From positions 1-40,247 of the forward strand of contig CAMNOS010000010.1 in the NCBI GenBank assembly GCA_946546925.1: a DNA stretch of 40,247 nucleotides, read 5' to 3'. Source of the DNA: an uncultured Butyrivibrio sp. GTDB taxonomy: Bacteria; Bacillota; Clostridia; Lachnospirales; Lachnospiraceae. The notes under the pieces are model-generated. The model saw only the letters and a list, made by a program, of their open reading frames with translations, was not told where the DNA came from and made no database searches. Below are positions 6,998 through 21,169 of this stretch, one piece after another (the first letter of the stretch is position 1; every line of letters begins with the position of its first letter). A program made the position numbers and the translations under genes.

Positions 6998-8536
6998 TCA
7001 ATACGCCCCCTTCTTTACAACTCTTGCAGCCTCTTCCTGTATGTTTCTGTCATAAGAAAGTACAGGTTCAGTATCCCTGCCACGTATCCTTCTGTCTATG
7101 TAGTTGCGGGTAATGCGGACCACAAGAGGTGTAAGCATCAGTATTCCCACAAGGTTCGGTATCATCATAAATCCGTTAAAGGTATCTGAAATGTCCCAGG
7201 CAAGCGAAGGTTCAAGGACAGCTCCAAGAACGATGATCAGTATGAACAGTACTCTGTAAAGCTTGGCCCAGAACACTCCGAAGAGGTACTCAACCACCTT
7301 GGAACCGTAGTAGGACCAGCAGACTACCGTTGTAAAGGCAAACAGTGTCACTGCCATGACTACAAAGATTTCACCCGGATATCCCAGTGTATCGCCGAAG
7401 ACCTTGGCCACCAGAGTGGCATCATCAGTTCCTGCAGCAACCGCGCCGCTCTCAAGGTCGATAGCACCTGAGCTTAAGACGACAAACGCAGTCATGGTAC
7501 AGATCACGATGGTATCAAGAAACACCTCTGCAATTCCCCACAGCCCCTGCTTGACGGGTTCTCTTGCACAGGAATTGACGTGAGCCATAACAGAGGAGCC
7601 AAGCCCCGCCTCATTGGAGAAAACACCCCTTTTGCACCCGCTTTTTATGGTGTTCATGGCCACCTGCACAGCAGTACCTGCAGCACCTCCCCGAAGTGCA
7701 TCAGGCCCCAGGGCGAATCTGAATATCGAAGCTGCAACAGCCGGGAGCATCTTAACATGAAAGATGATGACAACCAGGCACCCGGCAATATAGACAGCAG
7801 ACATCACCGGGATGATCTTTTCCGAAAAATAAGAAAGACGCCTGAATCCGCCCATGATGATAACAGCGCCTGCCAGCATTAAAGCGACGCCTATCCCCAG
7901 ATCAACCATGGATGCCCCGGCAAAGGTCCCCATGTCAATGCCCTCAAAAAACGTCGCATGGACATTTAGCGTGATCTTGTTAATCTGTCCCAGATTGCCG
8001 ATACCGAATGATGCAAATATGGTAAATACACAGAACATCACCGCCAGTACTTTCCCCAGCCTTTTCGTGCTCTTTTTTGCCCCAAGTCCGTCTTCGAGAT
8101 AATACATTGCACCACCTGACCAGGCTCCTTCCTGATTCCTTCTCCTGTAATAGATGCCAAGGACATTCTCAGAGAACTTGATCATCATTCCCAGTATGGC
8201 TGCGATCCACATCCAGAAAACCGCGCCCGGACCGCCTATGCATATGGCTGTAGACACTCCGGCAATATTGCCGGTTCCTATAGTGGAAGCCATGGCAGTG
8301 CAGAAAGCCCTGAACTGCGATATCGCGCCGGCATCGTTGATGACTCTGCCCTCGCCCTTAACACTTCCAAAGGTATTCTTCCACCAGTGCCCCCCATGTC
8401 TTATCTGAAATGCTCCCAAAGAAACCATGCAGACAAGTCCGGTTCCCAGAAGCAGTATGAGACCAAAGGTTCCCCAGACAAAAGAATTCAGCGAACTATT
8501 TACTTTTTCAACAACCCGAAATAAAGATTCGATCAT
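6998..8536 (-). CDS. Sodium:alanine/glycine symporter (AGCS family)
   Basis: This 512-aa inner-membrane protein imports alanine or glycine with Na+. It matches the AGCS family over its whole length: FQIRHGGHWWKNTFGS near the N-terminus, then ISQFRAFCTAMASTIGTGNI, which carries the family substrate-site signature, then GGPGAVFWMW, KRGVFSNEAGLGSSVMAH and CWSYYGSKVVEYLFG. About ten or more hydrophobic helices are visible. Its ATG overlaps the stop of the upstream DegV-containing hybrid kinase by 4 nt, so translation is probably coupled. It is the last gene of a four-gene operon that otherwise encodes signalling proteins. A role as co-sensor or as output of that system is inference. The substrate within the family cannot be fixed from sequence. 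Confidence 0.93.
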   Translation of the reverse strand: MIESLFRVVEKVNSSLNSFVWGTFGLILLLGTGLVCMVSLGAFQIRHGGHWWKNTFGSVKGEGRVINDAGAISQFRAFCTAMASTIGTGNIAGVSTAICIGGPGAVFWMWIAAILGMMIKFSENVLGIYYRRRNQEGAWSGGAMYYLEDGLGAKKSTKRLGKVLAVMFCVFTIFASFGIGNLGQINKITLNVHATFFEGIDMGTFAGASMVDLGIGVALMLAGAVIIMGGFRRLSYFSEKIIPVMSAVYIAGCLVVIIFHVKMLPAVAASIFRFALGPDALRGGAAGTAVQVAMNTIKSGCKRGVFSNEAGLGSSVMAHVNSCAREPVKQGLWGIAEVFLDTIVICTMTAFVVLSSGAIDLESGAVAAGTDDATLVAKVFGDTLGYPGEIFVVMAVTLFAFTTVVCWSYYGSKVVEYLFGVFWAKLYRVLFILIIVLGAVLEPSLAWDISDTFNGFMMIPNLVGILMLTPLVVRITRNYIDRRIRGRDTEPVLSYDRNIQEEAARVVKKGAY

Positions 8537-11500
8537 TCTTCATCAAGCCTCTGCAATATCCCGCTGTAATCAAAACCATCTGCCAGTTTCTTAATATCTT
8601 CATACTTCTTAAGGTGCTTATCGGGAACTGCATAATCAGACAATTCCTTCAGAGCAGCTTCTATGACATCTGAGTCCATATCATCCGCGCCTTTTGCAAC
8701 CGCCTCATAAACCCTCCTTATCAGGTCATCATCTGCAACCGGCAGGTCCTCTGCCCCGTCCCTTGCGCTGTCTTTTTCCGCATACAAAGGAGCCAGGATC
8801 TCCTTATATTCAAGGAAGTGCTCCATGCAGCTTTGATGGTGCTCTCTGATAAAGTCATAATCCCCGGTCTTGCCTGCCGTTTCCAGCTCTCTGGCCTCAT
8901 CCGATACAGACAGTGCACCGATAAGCCTTGCGGAACTCTTCAAGGCATGTACTTTTATCGTGTAGTCTTTCCAGTTCTCATTGTCATAAAATCCCTGTAT
9001 TTCCTCTGCCTTTTCGTCGATCGCTTCATAGAACAGCTTAAGCACAACGGCAAAGGACTCCGCCGAACCACTGTTTTCTATCCCTGTCTGATAGTCAATT
9101 CCCTCAATGTTCTCATACCAGGCGCCCTGTGAGGAAACCGCACCGTCTTTGGATCCTTCCGAAAGACCTCTGCCAGCGGACTGTCTGTTCTCATCTGCGC
9201 TGTCAGATGCGCCGCTGTCTCCGGTTCTGTTCATATCACGAAGTTCCGAATCGGTGACAGGGAGGATGGAGGAAATATTAAAGAACTTGTTACCTTTTAC
9301 AAAGTACAGTATTCCGAAAGCTCCGGGACCGCAGTTTGATGCAACGGCGGCGGAAGCTTTCTGGAAGATTACCCGCTCAAAATATGCAATCTTACTGATC
9401 TCTTCCTTAACCCAGAGGAGAGTTTCCTCCGGTACATCCACGTAGGTGATAAATGCCACCTCAGAGTCCGGAATGATGTCCACAGGAAAGGCCTTTCTGA
9501 TGTACTTGCGATATGCATGTTTCCTGTCACCCATCCATATGCCGCCTATCATCGACCGGTCATTGCTGAATATAATTCCGGGTCTTAGATCAAGCGCGCC
9601 CGCTATGGCATTTACCCTTCTGCTCACAAGGCCTTTTTTGGCCATGAACTCAGTGGTGTCCATTACAAAGCTGCACCTTAACCTCTTTTTCACCGACTCC
9701 AGCTCAGACACCATCTGCTCGACGGAAATGTCCTGCTGCGCCAGCTTGCACGCTATCAGTGTAAGTATGCCCATGGCACTTGATACACATTCCGAGTTTA
9801 TAACGGATACGCTTTCAAATGACCTTGATGCCTCCAGCGCTCTGTTGTAGTCCTCGCTCAGACTTGTTGAGAGAGCAATATATATCAGATGTCTTGCGTT
9901 CTTTAGATTCTTAGCAAAAAAGTCCCTGTATTCCACTACGCTTGGCGGGGAAGAAACAGCATTTTTGCCGCTCTTAATGTACCTTAAAAGTTCATCCGAC
10001 TCCATCTGGTACGTATCCTTGAACTCTCCCTCCTCCGTGATGATCTTAAACGGGAGTATCGGAAGATACGGGTTATTCACTATCTGATCGGGCATATCAC
10101 ACATACTGCTCGTGGTGATGACAAAAGGAATCCTCTTCCTGTAGCTGTCCAGAGTATCAAACTCCCTGCTCATCTGCTCGGAATTGTTCTTAAGAAGAAT
10201 CTTGTCAACTGAAATGTGGTTGATAAGCGCGTTCTCCAGCTGTTCTCCGGAAACAGGCTTTACCAGATACCCGTCAAAGCCGGAGCGCATGTAGAACTCG
10301 CGGTTTTCAGAGCCGGCATTGGCCGTGAGCACAATGACAGGTGTTGTATTGTTGAGACCTCCCGTCTGTCTGCGCAGCAGCTCAAGGCACTTTATACCGT
10401 CCATCTCGGGCATGAGGTGATCCATGAGAACAGCATCATATTTGGTACTCAGCGTCCGCTCCAGTGCCTCCTTGCCGCTCTTTACAGTATCAATACGCAT
10501 TCCAGTCTGCGACAGAAGTCTCTTTTCCACATCCAGATTGATCTCGTTGTCATCAACAATGAGCACACTTGCTTCAGGCGCAGAAAACCTGCTCTCATAG
10601 GATGATTTTCTGGCACTTCCGTAATTCTGAATATGTAGATCTCCGATTTCTGTGGCATCAGCAATGCTCTGCTTCAGGACAACGTTAAAGGTAGAGCCCT
10701 CTCCGTACACACTGTTTACTGTAATATCGCCGCCCATCAGGTTTACAAGCTGCCTGACTATACTAAGTCCAAGGCCTGTCCCTTCTATGTGACGGTTCTT
10801 TTCCTCATCCACACGCTTGAATGCATCAAAAAGATACGGAAGGGTATCATTCTTAATGCCTATTCCGGTGTCAGTGACGCTGAACCTCAGAAGAACTGTG
10901 CCCTCTTCCACGACCTCACTCTCTAAGTGAAGTCCCACCTTGCCTTCTCTTGTATATTTCACGGCGTTGTTAAGAAGGTTTATGAGTATCTGCTTTATCC
11001 TGACCTCATCGCCGTACAACACCGCAGGGACATTCGGATCGACGCTGACATCGAGCTCAAGCCCCTTCTCCTGTGCCCTTATCCATATCATGCCAACTAT
11101 CTCGGAAAGAAGCTCTGCCACGGAGTAGTCCTCCGAAACCAGGTCCATGCTTCCGGCTTCTATCTTGGAAAAATCGAGGATGTCGTTGATCAGGGCAAGA
11201 AGCATCTTACCGGAACCTGCTATACCGTTGGCATCCTTTACAATCTCCTCAGTTGCGTCAGGGTCCCTTAAGATCAGCTCGTTAAGCCCCAGTATGGAGT
11301 TGATGGGTGTCCTGATCTCATGGCTCATGCTGGAAAAGAATCTGTTCTGAGCGCGGTTGAGCTCCTCAGCCCTGTCCGCCTCTTTTTTGGCTATCATATT
11401 CTCTATCTTAAAAAGCCTGTTCTGGAAGATGACCATGACAAGGCACACTATTCCAACCAGTATCATGGATATGAAGGAGTCCACGAAGAACATGCTCCTT

Positions 11501-11967
11501 GAATGCTTAAATACCAGTTCAGGGTAGTAGTATGCAGCAAGATAACAAACCGTAGTCATAATGAAGAGAAGTACAAGCATTACCGTGCGCCATCTGCCTG
11601 ACAGAACAAGACCGGCGTAAAGAAATGCAAATATAAACCATAGGGCACCGCCGCCCTCTACACCTCCGCCGAAGAAAAATATGGCGGGGAGGATCAGAAA
11701 GATCAGCCCTATGATCACCAGCCTTACCGCTATCTCGACCCTGTTAAAATAAATCCCCACGTAGGTAAGCACGGGAACAATGATGAGAGTAGCAATGAGC
11801 GTTGCTATCTCAACAATGCTCTCGCCAAAGATGATGTCACATATCAGCGCTGTAATAACCGCCAGCGAGCTTATAAAAGTCAGCAGCACAAAGACACGGT
11901 CCGCAAAATTTCTCTTCGGATCCTTGATAAGACTGACTGTATTTTTTATGATCCTTATCAGCCTCAT
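8533..11967 (-). CDS. Hybrid histidine kinase with receiver, DegV-type lipid-binding and Hpt domains
   Basis: At 1144 aa this is a multi-step phosphorelay in one chain. Six hydrophobic segments lie at about 25-182. HisKA has [16 protein letters not shown] with His216. HATPase follows with [11 protein letters not shown] (about 328-338), DTGIG (366-370) and [12 protein letters not shown]. The receiver spans about 467-585 with Asp516 in [11 protein letters not shown]. Residues of about 613-892 form a complete DegV (EDD-fold, fatty-acid-binding) domain: [35 protein letters not shown] and [11 protein letters not shown] correspond to the four hallmark DegV motifs. After a polar linker, an Hpt-like domain carries [13 protein letters not shown] with His1008, and about 80 further residues follow. 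The gene overlaps both neighbours by 4 nt. Fatty acyl ligand sensing is inferred from the DegV family; the ligand and the final output are unknown. Confidence 0.9.
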
Positions 11968-14015
11968 TTGCCATCACCTCCCCCGGTCTTTCTGATCTTC
12001 GGAAGCAAACGAGCCATTACTCTTTCAAATTCATTTATGTTGATAGGCTTTCCAACAAATCCGTCAAATCCCTCTCTTATAAACATCTCTTTTGCCCCGG
12101 ATACCACATTTGCAGTCAGTGCGACAAACACGGTTCCGTGCTCGGGAACCATCCCTCTTGTCTTGAGAATTCTCATTGCCTCGACGCCATCCATCTCCGG
12201 CATCATATGATCCATGAAAATGACATCATACCGCTCCTTGAGGCACATTTCTATTGCCTGTTTTCCGCTTCCGGCTGTTTCTGTAACAATGCCGTAATCT
12301 TTGAACAGACCGCAGGCAACCACCAGGTTCATAGGCTCATCATCCACCACAAGAGCCCTTATTCCCGCAAGGTCCGGCCTCTCGACACGATCCGCAAGCT
12401 CCAAATTTCCTGCATTACTGCCCTCATTGATGACGCTGATCACAGGATAGGCATAAAGAGGTTTGGGCATGACAATCACCTTGCTGCCATCTCCTGTCTT
12501 AAAGCCCTCCGACGCAGACACCGCCACCACAACGTCGTTCGTGCTGATCTCATCAAAGAATCCGGCATTATCCAGATACTCTTCCTCACCCATAAAAATG
12601 TATTTAACACTGAGCTTTTCCATAAGGCTCTTAACTTCGCCTATACTGTCAGCCTGATACAGCGGCACACGCAATCCCGCAGCCAGGTTTAAAGCCATGG
12701 TCCTGTAAAAATCGCGAAGCTTCGGAATCTTGTACTTATCAGGTCTTACATGGAAAAGGATATCGCCATCACAAAAGCTCCTGAGCTTAAGGCACGGCGT
12801 GGAGTCAACCACCCTCTGCGGTATCGTGATCTTCACAACAGTTCCTTCACCTCTTGTACTCTCAAGTTTTACAAAGCCTCCCATACTGTGGACAAAGCCG
12901 TATACTATTGAAAGCCCAAGACCTACGCCTCCGGAACTTCTGTCCCTTCTTTTGTTGGCCTGATACAGCCCGAGAGAGGCCATATAGATGTCCTTGCGGC
13001 TCATTCCGCTGCCGGTATCCTTAACTTCAATGCACAGATTCACTCCGTAGTCCTTATTCTCGGTATAGACCCTTAAAAGTATTCCTCCGTGTCTGGTGAA
13101 TTTAACTGCGTTGGAAAGGACATGTCTGAATATCTTATGTATCTTTTTTATATCGCCTCTCATCACAGAGGGGACTGCCGCGTCAATATCTACCACAAGC
13201 TCAAGCTCGTCATTGTCGTGATTCATCCGGAAGCTTTTTACCACGTCCCTGATGATCCTGGTGCTTGAATAATCCTCTTCCTCCAGGAAAACATCTCCCG
13301 ACTTGACCTCAGTGTAATCCTGTATATCATCTATCTGTCCGGTAAGCCTTAGGCCCGCCTCTTTTATCGCATATGCCTCGTCGAACTGTCCCTTCTTTAT
13401 CAGAAGATCAGACATTCCGCTCACCACATTGACCGGAGTTCGCAGCTCATGCGAAATATTTGAGAGGAAATCATCCACGTTATTGGCATTGGCTTCAAGG
13501 AGTCTGTCTTTTTCCTTCGCAGACTCCATCAGCTCCCTTCTTATCTGTATTACTCTTATGCTTGAGAGATAGATAAAGAACATGACGATCACATGCAGAA
13601 TGATTCTTGAAACAGACAGACGGTCAGACCACAGATTGTCTTTCCGATGAATATAAAAGAGCTGGACAATGAGTATTACATAGTACTCCAGCATAAACAG
13701 ATTCATCATGTAAATATGATCAAGGAATGAAAACGCAAAAAGAGCCAGTGCCACTATCGCTACCGAGTCAAAAAGGCTGGTGGCGTGGATTCCATGGAAA
13801 AGAACCGTGAACATGGTAAATACACAGTAGTATACTTCCCTTATATCCTCGGAGGGACTTCCGGTGATGTGCATGATCCAGATAGATACCGTTCCAATGA
13901 TGATAAGTGGTGGCACCCAGAATTCCCATCCCATAAGAATGCTTTCTATTATAAGTCCCAAACACGAAAGACTTATAAGCGTGATAATAAACTGGTTTAT
14001 TTTCGATCTTTCCAT
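11964..14015 (-). CDS. Hybrid histidine kinase with degenerate and canonical receiver domains
   Basis: This 683-aa protein has about six hydrophobic helices in residues 8-155. HisKA has SNISHELRTPVNVVSG (His189), and the HATPase has VLSNAVKFT, DTGSGMS and GVGLGLSIVYGF. The segment of about 400-540 looks like a pseudo-receiver, because no phospho-acceptor Asp motif is visible. The C-terminal receiver opens with ALVVDDEPMN, has Asp602 in IFMDHMMPEMDG, and ends with FVGKPI. There is no Hpt domain, so the phosphate may pass to the Hpt of the DegV-containing partner kinase, whose start overlaps this gene's stop by 4 nt. That relay is inference. No periplasmic sensor domain of note is visible, so sensing is probably in the membrane or through a partner. 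Confidence 0.92.
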   Translation of the reverse strand: MERSKINQFIITLISLSCLGLIIESILMGWEFWVPPLIIIGTVSIWIMHITGSPSEDIREVYYCVFTMFTVLFHGIHATSLFDSVAIVALALFAFSFLDHIYMMNLFMLEYYVILIVQLFYIHRKDNLWSDRLSVSRIILHVIVMFFIYLSSIRVIQIRRELMESAKEKDRLLEANANNVDDFLSNISHELRTPVNVVSGMSDLLIKKGQFDEAYAIKEAGLRLTGQIDDIQDYTEVKSGDVFLEEEDYSSTRIIRDVVKSFRMNHDNDELELVVDIDAAVPSVMRGDIKKIHKIFRHVLSNAVKFTRHGGILLRVYTENKDYGVNLCIEVKDTGSGMSRKDIYMASLGLYQANKRRDRSSGGVGLGLSIVYGFVHSMGGFVKLESTRGEGTVVKITIPQRVVDSTPCLKLRSFCDGDILFHVRPDKYKIPKLRDFYRTMALNLAAGLRVPLYQADSIGEVKSLMEKLSVKYIFMGEEEYLDNAGFFDEISTNDVVVAVSASEGFKTGDGSKVIVMPKPLYAYPVISVINEGSNAGNLELADRVERPDLAGIRALVVDDEPMNLVVACGLFKDYGIVTETAGSGKQAIEMCLKERYDVIFMDHMMPEMDGVEAMRILKTRGMVPEHGTVFVALTANVVSGAKEMFIREGFDGFVGKPININEFERVMARLLPKIRKTGGGDGK

Positions 14016-14058
14016 GCGTGCTCCTTATGACAGTTAAGGCGAAACTATCTTCCCGGCA

Positions 14059-15384
14059 TCAGCACTCGTCCATGACGTATTCCACTTCGCACCATTCAGA
14101 TTCCGGACAGTTCTTCCACTCTTCCATAATACGGTTTACAACTCCGTCAATGTTTGTCTCATCCAGCATTGACAGTACCGCCAGATATTCATTGGCTTTG
14201 TTCTTCATAACGATATCGCTCCTGCTGAGGTTCTTTTTCAGATGCTCGCCGAAGGCGTTCATTATGTTGTCCAAAGACACCTCGTTCTCATTTTGAGGCG
14301 ACAGCAGGAACAAAACCTTCATGGCCTTGCAGCCATACTTTTTGTTGAACCTGATGAGAAAGTGATATACAGCCGAAAAAGACTCAATGCCAAGCACAAG
14401 GGCCTGTCTGCCCTCGTTCCTCTCCTCAAGGATCTTGGATATGCGCTCCATTTCTCCAACGGCCGAAAGCCCGTCCTCTTCTGATGTTTTCTCTCCGCTA
14501 TATACACAGCAGCAGTGCTTTCCGTTTTCTTTTGCTTTGTACAAAGACTCATCTGCAAGCCCAAACAGATCCTCATATACCCTGCCGTATTCGGGAACCA
14601 TTACAGCTCCCGCAGATATACCAAGGGGAACACCATGGTCTGCTCCCATGAGCCTTATGGCCATCTCCGCGAGCTGGTCATTGAGGCGCGATGTCAGAAG
14701 ACATGCAGCATCCTCTTCCTCCATTCCTGTCAGAAAAGCCAGGAACTCATCTCCTCCGATCCTGCATACCAGGTCCACGTTTCGGGTATTGTTCCTCATA
14801 ATGTCAGCAAATGCCACAAGAACATTGTCTCCCATCTCGTGTCCAAACAGATCATTGACCAGTTTAAAATTATCCAGGTCAAGAATCGTAAGAGCTCCGT
14901 TCATCCTGCTGCACATGTCAGTGACCTTCTCAATGCCGCTGGCCTTATTGAGAAGTCCTGTAAGCTTATCAATAGTCGCATTTTCCGTGAGTATTTCTAT
15001 TTTTCTGCTGTTCTGTATTGTGTTCTGTATACGCCTTATAAGCAGATCTTTGTTGAAGGGTTTGTGGATATAGTCCGAGGCTCCAACCCCTAGCCCCCGA
15101 TGCTCCGTCTCGTCGTCAGTATCCCCCGTGAGGAAGATGACCGGAGTCTCAAGTCTTCCCATGGCACTCTCCTGCCTGCGCAGTGCATCCAGAGTCTCAA
15201 AGCCATCCATCTCGGGCATCACAACGTCAAGAAGTATCAGATCCGGATTATTTTTCTCCATAAATCGGAGCAGATCCGGGCCAGACCTAAGGCAGCTTAT
15301 CTTTAAATCTTCAGAACCAAGAAGAGTCTTGGCACTTGTAAGGCTCAGTACTTCATCATCAACAACAACAATCCAGTTACCCAC
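14059..15384 (-). CDS. Response regulator with diguanylate cyclase (REC-GGDEF) and C-terminal degenerate GGDEF-like domain
   Basis: This 441-aa protein should make cyclic di-GMP when phosphorylated. The receiver covers about residues 4-122, with the phospho-Asp at 53 in LILLDVVMPEMDG. The GGDEF domain covers about 135-296; the active site RIGGDEF (210-214) is intact. The upstream RNVD at 201-204 matches the RxxD inhibitory site, so product feedback is expected. The last 130 residues (LGIESFSAVYHFLIRF to the end) look like a second GGDEF fold without a GGDEF motif, a tail I recall from Lachnospiraceae cyclases. Translation starts at GTG. It lies first in the operon, 43 nt ahead of the two hybrid kinases, which are its likely phosphodonors. 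Confidence 0.92.
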   Translation of the reverse strand: MGNWIVVVDDEVLSLTSAKTLLGSEDLKISCLRSGPDLLRFMEKNNPDLILLDVVMPEMDGFETLDALRRQESAMGRLETPVIFLTGDTDDETEHRGLGVGASDYIHKPFNKDLLIRRIQNTIQNSRKIEILTENATIDKLTGLLNKASGIEKVTDMCSRMNGALTILDLDNFKLVNDLFGHEMGDNVLVAFADIMRNNTRNVDLVCRIGGDEFLAFLTGMEEEDAACLLTSRLNDQLAEMAIRLMGADHGVPLGISAGAVMVPEYGRVYEDLFGLADESLYKAKENGKHCCCVYSGEKTSEEDGLSAVGEMERISKILEERNEGRQALVLGIESFSAVYHFLIRFNKKYGCKAMKVLFLLSPQNENEVSLDNIMNAFGEHLKKNLSRSDIVMKNKANEYLAVLSMLDETNIDGVVNRIMEEWKNCPESEWCEVEYVMDEC

Positions 15385-17886: not shown

Positions 17887-17983
17887 ACCACGTCCCGGTC
17901 TTTTATACTTTAAAAAAACAACTTTAGTTTTTTGTATAAAACGGCAAATATTTAAAATATTTAAGATAAATCTAAAATAACTA

Positions 17984-18151
17984 TTGACGCAGGCAGCCTT
18001 TGCCAAGATGGATTTCAGAGGTAAGAACGCACTGTTTCTTGCACTTCTTGCAACAATCATGATTCCCTTTGCGGTTGTCATGATCCCGCAGTACATGCTC
18101 TTTACCAAGCTCCACTGGACCAACTCCTTAGCGCCCCTTATCATCCCCGGG
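17984..18151 (+). pseudogene. Fragment of a carbohydrate ABC transporter permease (MalG-like)
   Basis: The plus-strand frame reads QAAFAKMDFRGKNALFLAL, then IMIPFAVVMIPQYM and KLHWTNSLAPLIIPG. This is the internal segment of a CUT1-family sugar ABC permease of the MalG/AraQ type. Only about 55 residues remain of some 280. The N-terminal membrane segments and the downstream EAA loop are missing. At about position 18152 the frame switches abruptly to antisense of the ArsR-type regulator. It is a relic of a sugar importer, presumably for arabino-oligosaccharides, left by a rearrangement. Confidence 0.8.
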
Positions 18152-19057
18152 GCTGTAGGCCATCTTGACGTTGATGTCCTGATTGTAGTTGCCAAAGCCT
18201 CTTCCGAAGATGGTAAGACCTCCCACATGCTCTGCGCTGTCGGGCACCTCAAGCTTGAGCTTTAGCTGGCTCTTGGAGGTGAGCCCGAACTGGTCGATAT
18301 TCACATCCGAGATCTGAAGACCGTCAATGTAGGTGCCCTTGTGATTGATCACTAGCATCTTGAGAAGTCCGTACTGATTCCAGTTGGGGAACCACCAGTC
18401 AGGTGTAAAGATACCCTTTACATCACCGAAATCGCCCGGAGATGTCCAAGTGCCAAGAAGCACCTCGTTCAGGTAAAAGTATATGTCAGAGGGCCACACG
18501 TTGTTGACTCCGGGCGCCTCGGAGCTTAGCTCCAGGGAGACGCAGATCTCATCAATCTTCTGATTGGCGGGAACAAAGTTGGGAATGGCATACTCCACAT
18601 ATCCCTTGGTAAACCACAGTATATCGGCCTCGTACCTGTCCGGATGGGCAAAATACCTGGTGTCATCCACCTCTCCGATTAGCCTTCTGCTGTTGGCAAG
18701 GCCGCAGGTCGGGAACACTTTGTAATCCGAGAACAGGCCCACCTTGATGTCAGTGGTGTAGATGTTCTCGTTCTGGGGCTTATCCTGCAGCTCTATAAGG
18801 ATCTTGTCCAGATGTACAGAGCACATCTTCTGGTTGCCGTGGCCTGAAGCCTCAGAGGATACAGTCACAACTCCGCACTCCTCCAGCTTCTTGATATGGC
18901 TGGTAAGCGCTCCGTTTGTGATATTAAGGCGCCCTGCCAGTTCGTTCATGTTCATGGAATTCTCATTCAGAAGAATCTTGACGATCTCTACTCGTATATC
19001 GGAACCAAGGGCCTTAAAGAGCTCAAGTCCCTCGTCCAGTGTCTTAATGTGTAACAT
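18128..19057 (-). CDS. ArsR-type regulator with large C-terminal domain, companion of arabinofuranosidase
   Basis: The protein is about 309 aa from the ATG at 19057. I chose that start over the upstream ORF start because AGGGGAG lies just before it and the wHTH domain begins there (MLHIKTLDEGLELFKAL). Residues of about 8-90 form an ArsR-like winged helix (NMNELAGRLNITNGALTSHI). The remaining ~200 residues are Trp/Tyr/Asp-rich (EVDDTRYFAHPD, FTPDWWFPNWNQYGL, HVGGLTIFGRGFGNYNQD). They look like a ligand-binding beta-rich domain that I associate with regulators beside GH51 genes. The last ten or so residues (AYSPGDDKGR) are read from the antisense of the permease fragment, so the native C-terminus is altered. 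It lies downstream of abf in the same direction. A role in arabinose-polymer control is inference. Confidence 0.8.
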   Translation of the reverse strand: MLHIKTLDEGLELFKALGSDIRVEIVKILLNENSMNMNELAGRLNITNGALTSHIKKLEECGVVTVSSEASGHGNQKMCSVHLDKILIELQDKPQNENIYTTDIKVGLFSDYKVFPTCGLANSRRLIGEVDDTRYFAHPDRYEADILWFTKGYVEYAIPNFVPANQKIDEICVSLELSSEAPGVNNVWPSDIYFYLNEVLLGTWTSPGDFGDVKGIFTPDWWFPNWNQYGLLKMLVINHKGTYIDGLQISDVNIDQFGLTSKSQLKLKLEVPDSAEHVGGLTIFGRGFGNYNQDINVKMAYSPGDDKGR

Positions 19058-19146: not shown

Positions 19147-20649
19147 TTATTTTAGTCTTATCTCAACCACACTTGCAGCCGGAACAGTTACCTTAAGGCC
19201 GCCATCAAGGCTGTAGCCATCAAAGCTCTTTTCTGTAACCTTTGAAGGCTCGTCAAAGGTATTGTGATCCTTAACATCTGCACTGCTGAGGATATTGGCT
19301 TCAACAACCTCAAAACTCTTCTTCTCGGTAAATACGACATCAAGCTCCTTAGCCTCAGTAAGTGACAGGTTGTTGAGTGTGATGGTGTAGATGCCTTCCT
19401 TCTCAGATACTGACTCAGTAACCTCAGGAACCATGAACTCGCCCGTTCCGGTCTCGCCTGTGCCTGTGATGTTGCTGTCCACAAGGTTTGCGCCCTGGTG
19501 ATGACGGAACATGTGGAAGACATGGTAGGTAGGAGTCTTTAACATCTTCTCGCCCTCTGTGAGGATCACGGACTGAAGAACGTTGACCATCTGAGCTATG
19601 CAGGCAAGCTTAACCCTGTCGCAGTGCTTGTTGAAGATGTTCAGTGTTATTCCAGCAACAAGAGCATCCCTAACGGTGTTCTGCTGGTAGAGGAATCCGG
19701 GATTTGTTCCGGGCTCAACATTGAACCAGTTGCCCCACTCATCCACAGAAAGTCCGATCTTCTTGTCAGGATCATACTGGTCGATTATTGCAGAGTGCTT
19801 CCTTATGAGCTCCTCCATCAGATATGCCTTCTTAAGAGTCTTGTACCACTCCTCATCATCAAAAGCTGTGGCACTTCCCTTGTCGCTCCAGGGTCCTGGA
19901 ACAGTGTAGTAGTGGAGGGAAATCAGATCCATAAAGCCGTGCTGCTCCTCGGGCACATGGTCAAAGCAGGTCTTCATAACTGCTTCCGTCCAGTGATAGT
20001 CACCTGAGTTAGGTCCGCAGCAGACCTTCTTTATTGGCTTTTTGGAGTTGTAGTTGCGAACGTAGGTCTGATATCTTCTGTACTCGTTGCCGTAGTACTC
20101 AGGAGTCATGTTGCCGCCGCATCCCCAGTTCTCATTGCCTACGCCGAAGTAATCGACCGTAAAGGGCTCCTCATGGCCGTTTTCTTTTCTGAGGTCAGCC
20201 ATTGGTGATACCCCGTCAAAGGTCATGTACTCAACCCACTGGCTCATCTCCTGAACAGTGCCGCTTCCAAGATTGCCGTTTACGTAGGTCTTGCAGCCAA
20301 GCTGCTTGCAGAGTTCCATGAACTCATGGGTTCCGAAGCTATTGTCCTCCATAACTCCGCCCCAGTGAGTGTTGATCATCTTCTTTCTCTTCTTTTTGTC
20401 ACCTATGCCGTCCATCCAGTGGTACTCGTCGGCAAAGCAGCCCCCGGGCCAGCGAAGAACAGGAACCTTGATCTCTTTGAGCGCTTCAACAACGTCCTTA
20501 CGCATTCCGTTGACGTTGGGGATGTCTGAATCCTCGCCTACATAGAGTCCCTCATAGATGCATCTTCCCAGATGCTCGGAGAAATGTCCGTAGATCTCCG
20601 GTGCTATCTCTCCCAATACTTTTGTTTCGTTGATAACAAGTTTAGCCAT
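19147..20649 (-). CDS. abfA: Alpha-L-arabinofuranosidase, GH51
   Basis: This 500-aa enzyme removes terminal alpha-L-arabinofuranosyl groups from arabinan and arabinoxylan fragments. It has no signal peptide and is intracellular, so it acts on imported oligosaccharides. The family-51 fold is evident from [34 protein letters not shown], the acid/base Glu in [12 protein letters not shown] and the nucleophile Glu in [10 protein letters not shown], and from [11 protein letters not shown]. The C-terminal beta-sandwich reaches the end ([14 protein letters not shown]). The length is normal for the family. An RBS, GAGAGGGAAG, lies 5' of the ATG. It is the only intact enzyme in a locus with broken permease and GH43 pieces. 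The exact substrate is not readable from sequence. Confidence 0.95.
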
Positions 20650-20670: not shown

Positions 20671-20999
20671 TTACTCATTAACGTCTTCTGCGTCCTGCAG
20701 ATACTTAACACCCCATATCGAGTGGTTGTTGTCACCGACCGCGCAAAACACAGGGTATTGTTGCCCGCTTCATCGGTCATTGATACAAGAACTGCGTAGT
20801 AGATGTACCAGGCGCCGTCCAGATAAGGGAGCTCCGGTGCCCAGATATGTATGCTCATAGGTCCGGACTCGTGTTTGTGCCAGATTTCCGTCTCTGGAAC
20901 TGAAGGGAGCTCCTCAAGGCTTTTAGCTTTTCTTAAAACAATCCGGTCGTACTCCGGAACAGAAGCAGTGAAATAATTTGAATCATTACATAATAAATT
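20671..20999 (-). pseudogene. Remnant of a GH43 glycoside hydrolase, truncated and frameshifted
   Basis: Minus-strand translation gives NYFTASVPEYDRIVLRKAK, then a stretch ending in IWHKHESGPMS, then IHIWAPELPYLDGAWYIYYA. This is typical of the GH43 five-bladed propeller, blades 1-2. The N-terminus with the catalytic-base Asp is missing; a stop lies just upstream and the promoter is fused to it. After YIYYA the reading departs from GH43. A 2-nt (cg) excess at about 20740-20744 shifts the frame; if it is removed, the end reads DNNHSIWGVKYLQDAEDVNE followed by TAA at 20671. I do not recognise this C-terminal piece. The remnant lies directly upstream of abf, so a GH43-GH51 operon probably existed here before deletion. 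Confidence 0.78.
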
Positions 21000-21025
21000 C
21001 TAAAATGCAGGGGTGGCAGTGTCAA
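20997..21025 (-). promoter_or_regulatory. Near-consensus sigma-A promoter upstream of abf
   Basis: On the minus strand a perfect TTGACA (21020-21025), a 17-nt spacer and TAGAAT (20997-21002) form a near-ideal vegetative promoter. It reads through the GH43 remnant into the arabinofuranosidase gene about 350 nt downstream. No other good promoter is visible between it and abf. Confidence 0.82.
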
Positions 21026-21067
21026 CAATCATTTTAGATGTATTTGAAGTATTTTAGATGATTGTTG
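21023..21067. promoter_or_regulatory. Operator-like inverted repeat with internal direct repeats
   Basis: caacaatcat (21023-21032) and atgattgttg (21058-21067) are perfect inverted repeats. Within them attttagatg recurs at 21031 and 21051, exactly 20 bp, or about two helical turns, apart. The left arm overlaps the -35 box of the abf promoter, which is where a repressor or an activator would act. Confidence 0.65.
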
Positions 21068-21075
21068 TATTTTGC

Positions 21076-21124
21076 AAAAAGCTCCTGCTTTTTGTGCAAT
21101 TTTCCCACAAAGCAAGAGCTTTTT
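21076..21124. terminator. Bidirectional hairpin terminator after the aminotransferase gene
   Basis: aaaaagctcctgctttttgtg pairs with cacaaagcaagagcttttt around a short loop, with A/T runs at both ends. It lies 46 nt after the stop of the minus-strand aminotransferase and upstream of the abf promoter. The region 20650-21169 therefore holds the GH43 remnant, the promoter, the repeat and this terminator, and no intact gene. Confidence 0.75.
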
Positions 21125-21169
21125 AACATAATTCCAAGAAATATTTAAACTATTTTATTAAAGAAAACA

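Follow-up and report, generated by a model that had tools for sequence, protein, structure and literature searches.

Deletion scars of an arabinan-utilisation operon pair beside an intact GH51 gene in an uncultured Butyrivibrio

The window analysed here, a 40,247-nucleotide stretch of DNA from an uncultured Butyrivibrio-type gut bacterium, carries at 20671-21025 what we read, with a probability of roughly 0.88, as the deletion scar of an arabinan-utilisation operon pair, left by a recent, locus-specific loss of the use of arabinan, a plant polymer. On the minus strand the scar runs from a promoter through residues ~31-91 of a GH43_26-type protein to the last ~37 residues of a second GH43 protein, an endo-arabinanase, followed by an intact GH51 gene. 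It is ordinary gene decay in a known kind of locus, and the only mildly surprising part is a parallel loss that spared GH51 and a putative regulator.

Results

The orthologous locus is intact, and at the same place, in G105 (the closest relative), XPD2006, G031, G003, and G056. In G105 an HD-nuclease gene is followed by an operator/promoter and SBP-permease-permease, and then on the other strand by winged-HTH (wHTH), GH51, AbnB-like GH43 lipoprotein, and GH43_26 genes, a second operator/promoter, and a gene for an aspartate-type aminotransferase (AspAT); read from the AspAT side, intact relatives thus have AspAT, a 322-aa GH43, a 521-aa lipoprotein GH43, GH51, and wHTH. Compared gene by gene with the segment shared with G105, the window lacks only the SBP, the two permeases, the AbnB-like GH43, and GH43_26, and the relics correspond, in both order and strand, to the genes expected there. 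The earlier note had proposed that a deletion removed GH43 and left a relic leader before GH51, and had named intact GH43-GH51 loci as the comparison to make; the intact relatives bear out both the deletion and the leader (~340 nt), but loss of a single GH43 gene is too narrow, as a second GH43 gene and an ABC transporter ~3 kb away have also gone.

Locus structure varies elsewhere in the window and among the relatives. About 8 kb of the window (6998-15384), with ORFs of 512, 1144, 683, and 441 aa (the 441-aa product is a GGDEF-containing response regulator), have no counterpart at this place in G105; in G009 (L061, L191) the locus is rearranged, with PDZ protease and HD-nuclease genes separating GH51 from the transporter and the whole array on a single strand; and G040 (L072) exhibits the reverse pattern of loss, having dropped GH51 from its place in the locus but kept wHTH and the two GH43 genes.

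The first scar is composite. GH43 codons (NYFTASVPEYDR..., from 20978, minus strand) begin ~18 nt 3′ of TAGAAT, and the window sequence has neither an in-frame start codon nor a ribosome binding site (RBS) between them and the promoter, so that the headless GH43 next to a promoter described in the earlier note is indeed there; the piece matches Pfam Glyco_hydro_43 (E 6.5e-11, profile positions 24-84). When the scar was used as a protein query against related genomes, residues 2-62 matched a ~320-aa GH43 gene and residues ~58-100 matched the end of a ~525-aa gene ~2 kb further on. By comparison with the relatives' intact genes, 20793-20978 (minus strand) is the relic of a GH43_26-type exo-arabinofuranosidase gene, residues ~31-91 of ~322, lacking the start, the RBS, and all three catalytic residues; its 61-62 residues share 75-87% identity with the intact genes of 10 relatives. 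Alignment to relatives assigns 20671-20792 (minus strand) to an AbnB-like GH43 endo-arabinanase lipoprotein gene, of which the last ~37 codons remain, down to the stop at 20671-20673. Two genes contribute, and a single GH43 gene can be ruled out as the origin of the whole remnant; the view of the remnant as GH43 interior holds for 20793-20978 and fails for 20671-20792. The frameshift claimed for the GH43 remnant exists, but lies in this second piece, and instead of a cg excess the alignment has a net -1 relative to G105, G031, G003, G009, and G002 near 20740-20748. The -1 may be a sequencing indel, a doubt that is immaterial because the reading frame lacks a start and both gene bodies.

For the GH43_26 relic, pN to relatives is 0.10-0.15, compared with 0.09-0.13 for the intact G105 gene and the same relatives. 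No non-synonymous excess is seen in the relic, either because the piece is short or because the loss is too recent; since its non-synonymous divergence does not exceed that of the intact gene, the deletions are probably recent relative to the species split.

The intact homologues identify the lost enzymes. The 322-aa protein is closest by sequence to 9NXJ (E ~1e-114) and 3AKF (~1e-109), both GH43_26 exo-1,5-alpha-L-arabinofuranosidases (PMC12493170); the members of GH43_26 that have been characterised have arabinan or arabino-oligosaccharides as substrates, and the catalytic residues of SaAraf43A are D20, D135, and E196 (PMC12493170), so that a piece spanning residues ~31-91 holds none of the three. 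The 521-aa lipoprotein matches the AbnB endo-arabinanase model, although below the curated cut-off, and the structures 3LV4 and 2X8T; the G105 orthologue has a GH43_C domain.

A second scar, at 17951-18150, lies ~3 kb from the first and consists of the transporter operator and a 155-bp permease piece. The operator of the lost ABC-transporter operon (17951-17978, plus strand) is recognisable as the conserved block with 1 mismatch, followed by TATTGAC (-35), with the -10 absent; in G105, XPD2006, and G031 this block is found ahead of SBP-permease-permease. By alignment, 17996-18150 (plus strand) derives from the second permease gene: ~50 codons survive as an island fused without a gap to the 3′ end of wHTH, with an identity of 85% to G105 and of 91% to G031. 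In G105 the SBP and both permeases occupy this place over ~3.4 kb, preceded by the operator. The island is thus nearer to G031 than to the sister G105, and its pS to G031 (0.28) is far below the 0.58-0.78 of flanking genes; an exchange before the deletion is possible.

The promoter of the first scar occupies 20997-21025 (minus strand), with TTGACA from 21025, a 17-nt spacer, and TAGAAT to 20997. The near-ideal character ascribed to it stands: it matches the consensus at 11 of 12 positions, dinucleotide shuffling of the region gave a match this good in 9 of 1000 cases, and the element is conserved, the sigma-70-type -35 and -10 hexamers aligning at the same 17-nt spacing in G031, G003, G056, and G002. 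Just 5′ of the -35, at 21031-21058 (minus strand), lies a tandem operator, TCTAAAAT-12-TCTAAAAT with a 20-bp period, which is conserved 5′ of GH43_26 in G105, G031, G003, G009, G056, G050, G008, and G040, and is also kept at the decayed G002 locus. The larger block, ATCTAAAATA-n10-ATCTAAAATA followed by TTGAC and a -10 17 bases on, is at the same place in 9 relatives, with GH43_26 behind it in 8 of them. A genome-wide motif count finds 21031-21058 to be the only exact operator copy in its own genome; allowing ≤2 mismatches there are 2 real sites and 3 for a reversed-pattern control, and the case for the operator therefore rests on where it lies and how well it is conserved rather than on how rare it is. 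Across Butyrivibrio the tandem TCTAAAAT operator with its 20-bp period stands before both arabinan operons (window 21031-21058 and 17951-17978; L067 1605-1632; L068 9698-9725).

Upstream of the operator, a terminator hairpin after the AspAT gene (21066-21117, minus strand) separates AspAT from the scar promoter; the fold of 21058-21130 reaches -26.3 kcal/mol (z -6.5), and the hairpin region is kept upstream of intact operons in relatives. The earlier note left open whether the deletion had preserved or created the promoter. Since intact operons of related Butyrivibrio genomes have the same promoter/operator block ahead of them, creation by the deletion can be rejected, and the scar promoter is, as judged from this conservation, the old, native operon promoter kept through the deletion.

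Immediately behind the scar, at 19147-20649 (minus strand), is the GH51 alpha-L-arabinofuranosidase gene, now promoter-proximal and, as the earlier note said, intact with its own RBS. The full-length frame encodes 500 aa after a GAGAGGG before the ATG, is 86% identical to the G105 GH51, and is assigned by profile match and by motifs read from the sequence, GNENWG (acid/base) and VDEWGNWF (nucleophile), from which the activity is predicted. Its distance to the putative transcription start would have shrunk from ~2.6 kb in the intact order to ~340 nt in the window. The low dN/dS of GH51 mostly reflects time before the loss and, the loss being recent, is no proof of present selection; selection may nonetheless account for its retention.

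The neighbouring gene (18128-19057, minus strand) encodes an ArsR-type winged-HTH protein (Pfam HTH_24/HTH_5) and putative regulator whose residues 1-303 share 95% identity with the G105 protein, its last residues having been replaced at the deletion edge by a new short C-terminus. The TCTAAAAT operator is found before both operons and also beside wHTH variants in G005, G021, and G028, and the protein is a possible candidate binder of the tandem operator. In G049, G052, and G011 the wHTH gene adjoins AspAT with the arabinan genes absent between them, which could be either the ancestral state or a complete loss.

The same locus has been lost independently in another species, a point absent from the earlier note. 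G002 lacks the same five genes, although its sister XPD2006 (L108/L192), at ~6% DNA difference, is intact; relative to XPD2006, the G002 assembly, which is fragmented and ~60% complete, has lost ~2.35 kb, within which a 30-bp island is left, and another ~3.5 kb. Trees of GH51, AspAT, and wHTH require two changes, which well-supported branches force. Given the intact sister and breakpoints that differ between the window and G002, the sequences indicate that the loss happened at least twice, and both lineages kept GH51, wHTH, and the operator/promoter.

Elsewhere in the metagenome-assembled genome (MAG), which is 80.6% complete, no AbnB homologue was found at E ≤1e-15 and no orthologous permease (the best match is 38%), and the lost genes could sit on missing contigs. 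No L-arabinose isomerase (AraA_N, PF02610) was found in any of eight genomes (G000, G002, G105, G101, G003, G031, G009, and G056); absent even where arabinan loci are intact, it makes arabinose catabolism unusable as a marker of the loss, and these genomes may have another isomerase or route for arabinose. We found nothing directly relevant in the literature on the loss of arabinan operons in this group.

Discussion

We propose that the window lineage once had the relatives' two-operon cluster, a sugar ABC-transporter operon and a convergent GH43_26/AbnB-like/GH51/wHTH operon, with the same tandem operator on both. Deletions with little or no junction homology took the transporter, the 5′ end of GH43_26, and all that lay between GH43_26 codon ~91 and the final ~37 endo-arabinanase codons; GH51 and wHTH have stayed open, and GH51 now follows the native promoter after an untranslated relic of ~340 nt, as counted from the putative transcription start. 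Expression of GH51 from the scar promoter is plausible on the evidence of sequence, in which case its transcript would begin at the old promoter and carry the relic leader, and the enzyme would still be made under the old operator, with the wHTH protein perhaps controlling both operators. The lineage most likely no longer cuts arabinan outside the cell or imports the fragments by this system, and GH51 would act on the arabinofuranosyl groups of sugars that reach the cell in other ways.

Could the real genome be intact, and the binned contig either chimeric or a collapsed strain variant? The source is a 260-contig MAG, and the other decayed case, G002, is an incomplete assembly too, but the pieces are all unique in sequence, have diverged from all of the relatives, and stand in syntenic order and strand, the junctions share too few bases for an assembler overlap, and the shared segment otherwise contains every G105 gene; we consider an artefact of this kind improbable. 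Still harder to credit is that the remnant was retained as a functional element, whether it encodes a short peptide or acts as a leader RNA controlling GH51. The GH43_26 piece does remain open for ~60 codons and keeps conserved protein sequence, yet it has no start codon or RBS, the remnant is frameshifted, relatives have no conserved leader, and that of G002 is quite different. The stretch that contains a terminator-like stem at 20942-20958 has a fold no more stable than those of its shuffled versions (z 0.09), and a leader attenuator there is rejected.

Loss by deletion could also have been selected, an extension of the deletion reading rather than a true alternative to it. Arabinan degraders would then have been converted repeatedly, in at least two Butyrivibrio lineages, into scavengers of other arabinosyl sugars: the costly secreted endo-arabinanase, the exo-enzyme, and the transporter would have been dropped, GH51 would have moved from third gene to a position directly behind a regulated promoter, and the regulator and operator would have stayed in service. 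The identical outcome of the two losses speaks for such streamlining; there are, however, only two cases, both in incomplete assemblies, the deletions look recent enough that GH51 may simply not have decayed yet, and G040 instead lost GH51. We regard selected streamlining as possible but unlikely.

The deletion reading offers a clear snapshot of a polysaccharide-use locus being dismantled, in which secreted enzymes and transporter go while GH51, the putative regulator, and the promoter stay, an outcome reached twice; it also yields a candidate operator, the tandem TCTAAAAT, for a Butyrivibrio arabinan regulon.

Arabinan-utilisation clusters of Firmicutes comprise abn/abf genes with GH43, GH51, and an ABC transporter. 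The intact relatives resemble these in holding endo-arabinanase, exo-arabinofuranosidase, GH51, SBP-dependent transporter, and putative regulator together, whereas in the window everything except GH51 and the putative regulator is relic. Similarly, the relatives' intact homologue strongly matches the GH43_26 enzymes SaAraf43A and AtAbf43C, but the window piece covers only residues ~31-91 and lacks all three catalytic positions; and the second intact homologue resembles AbnB/Abn2-type GH43 endo-arabinanases with GH43_C in its model match, its likeness to 3LV4 and 2X8T, and the GH43_C domain in G105, but of this gene the window retains only the last ~37 codons, frameshifted.
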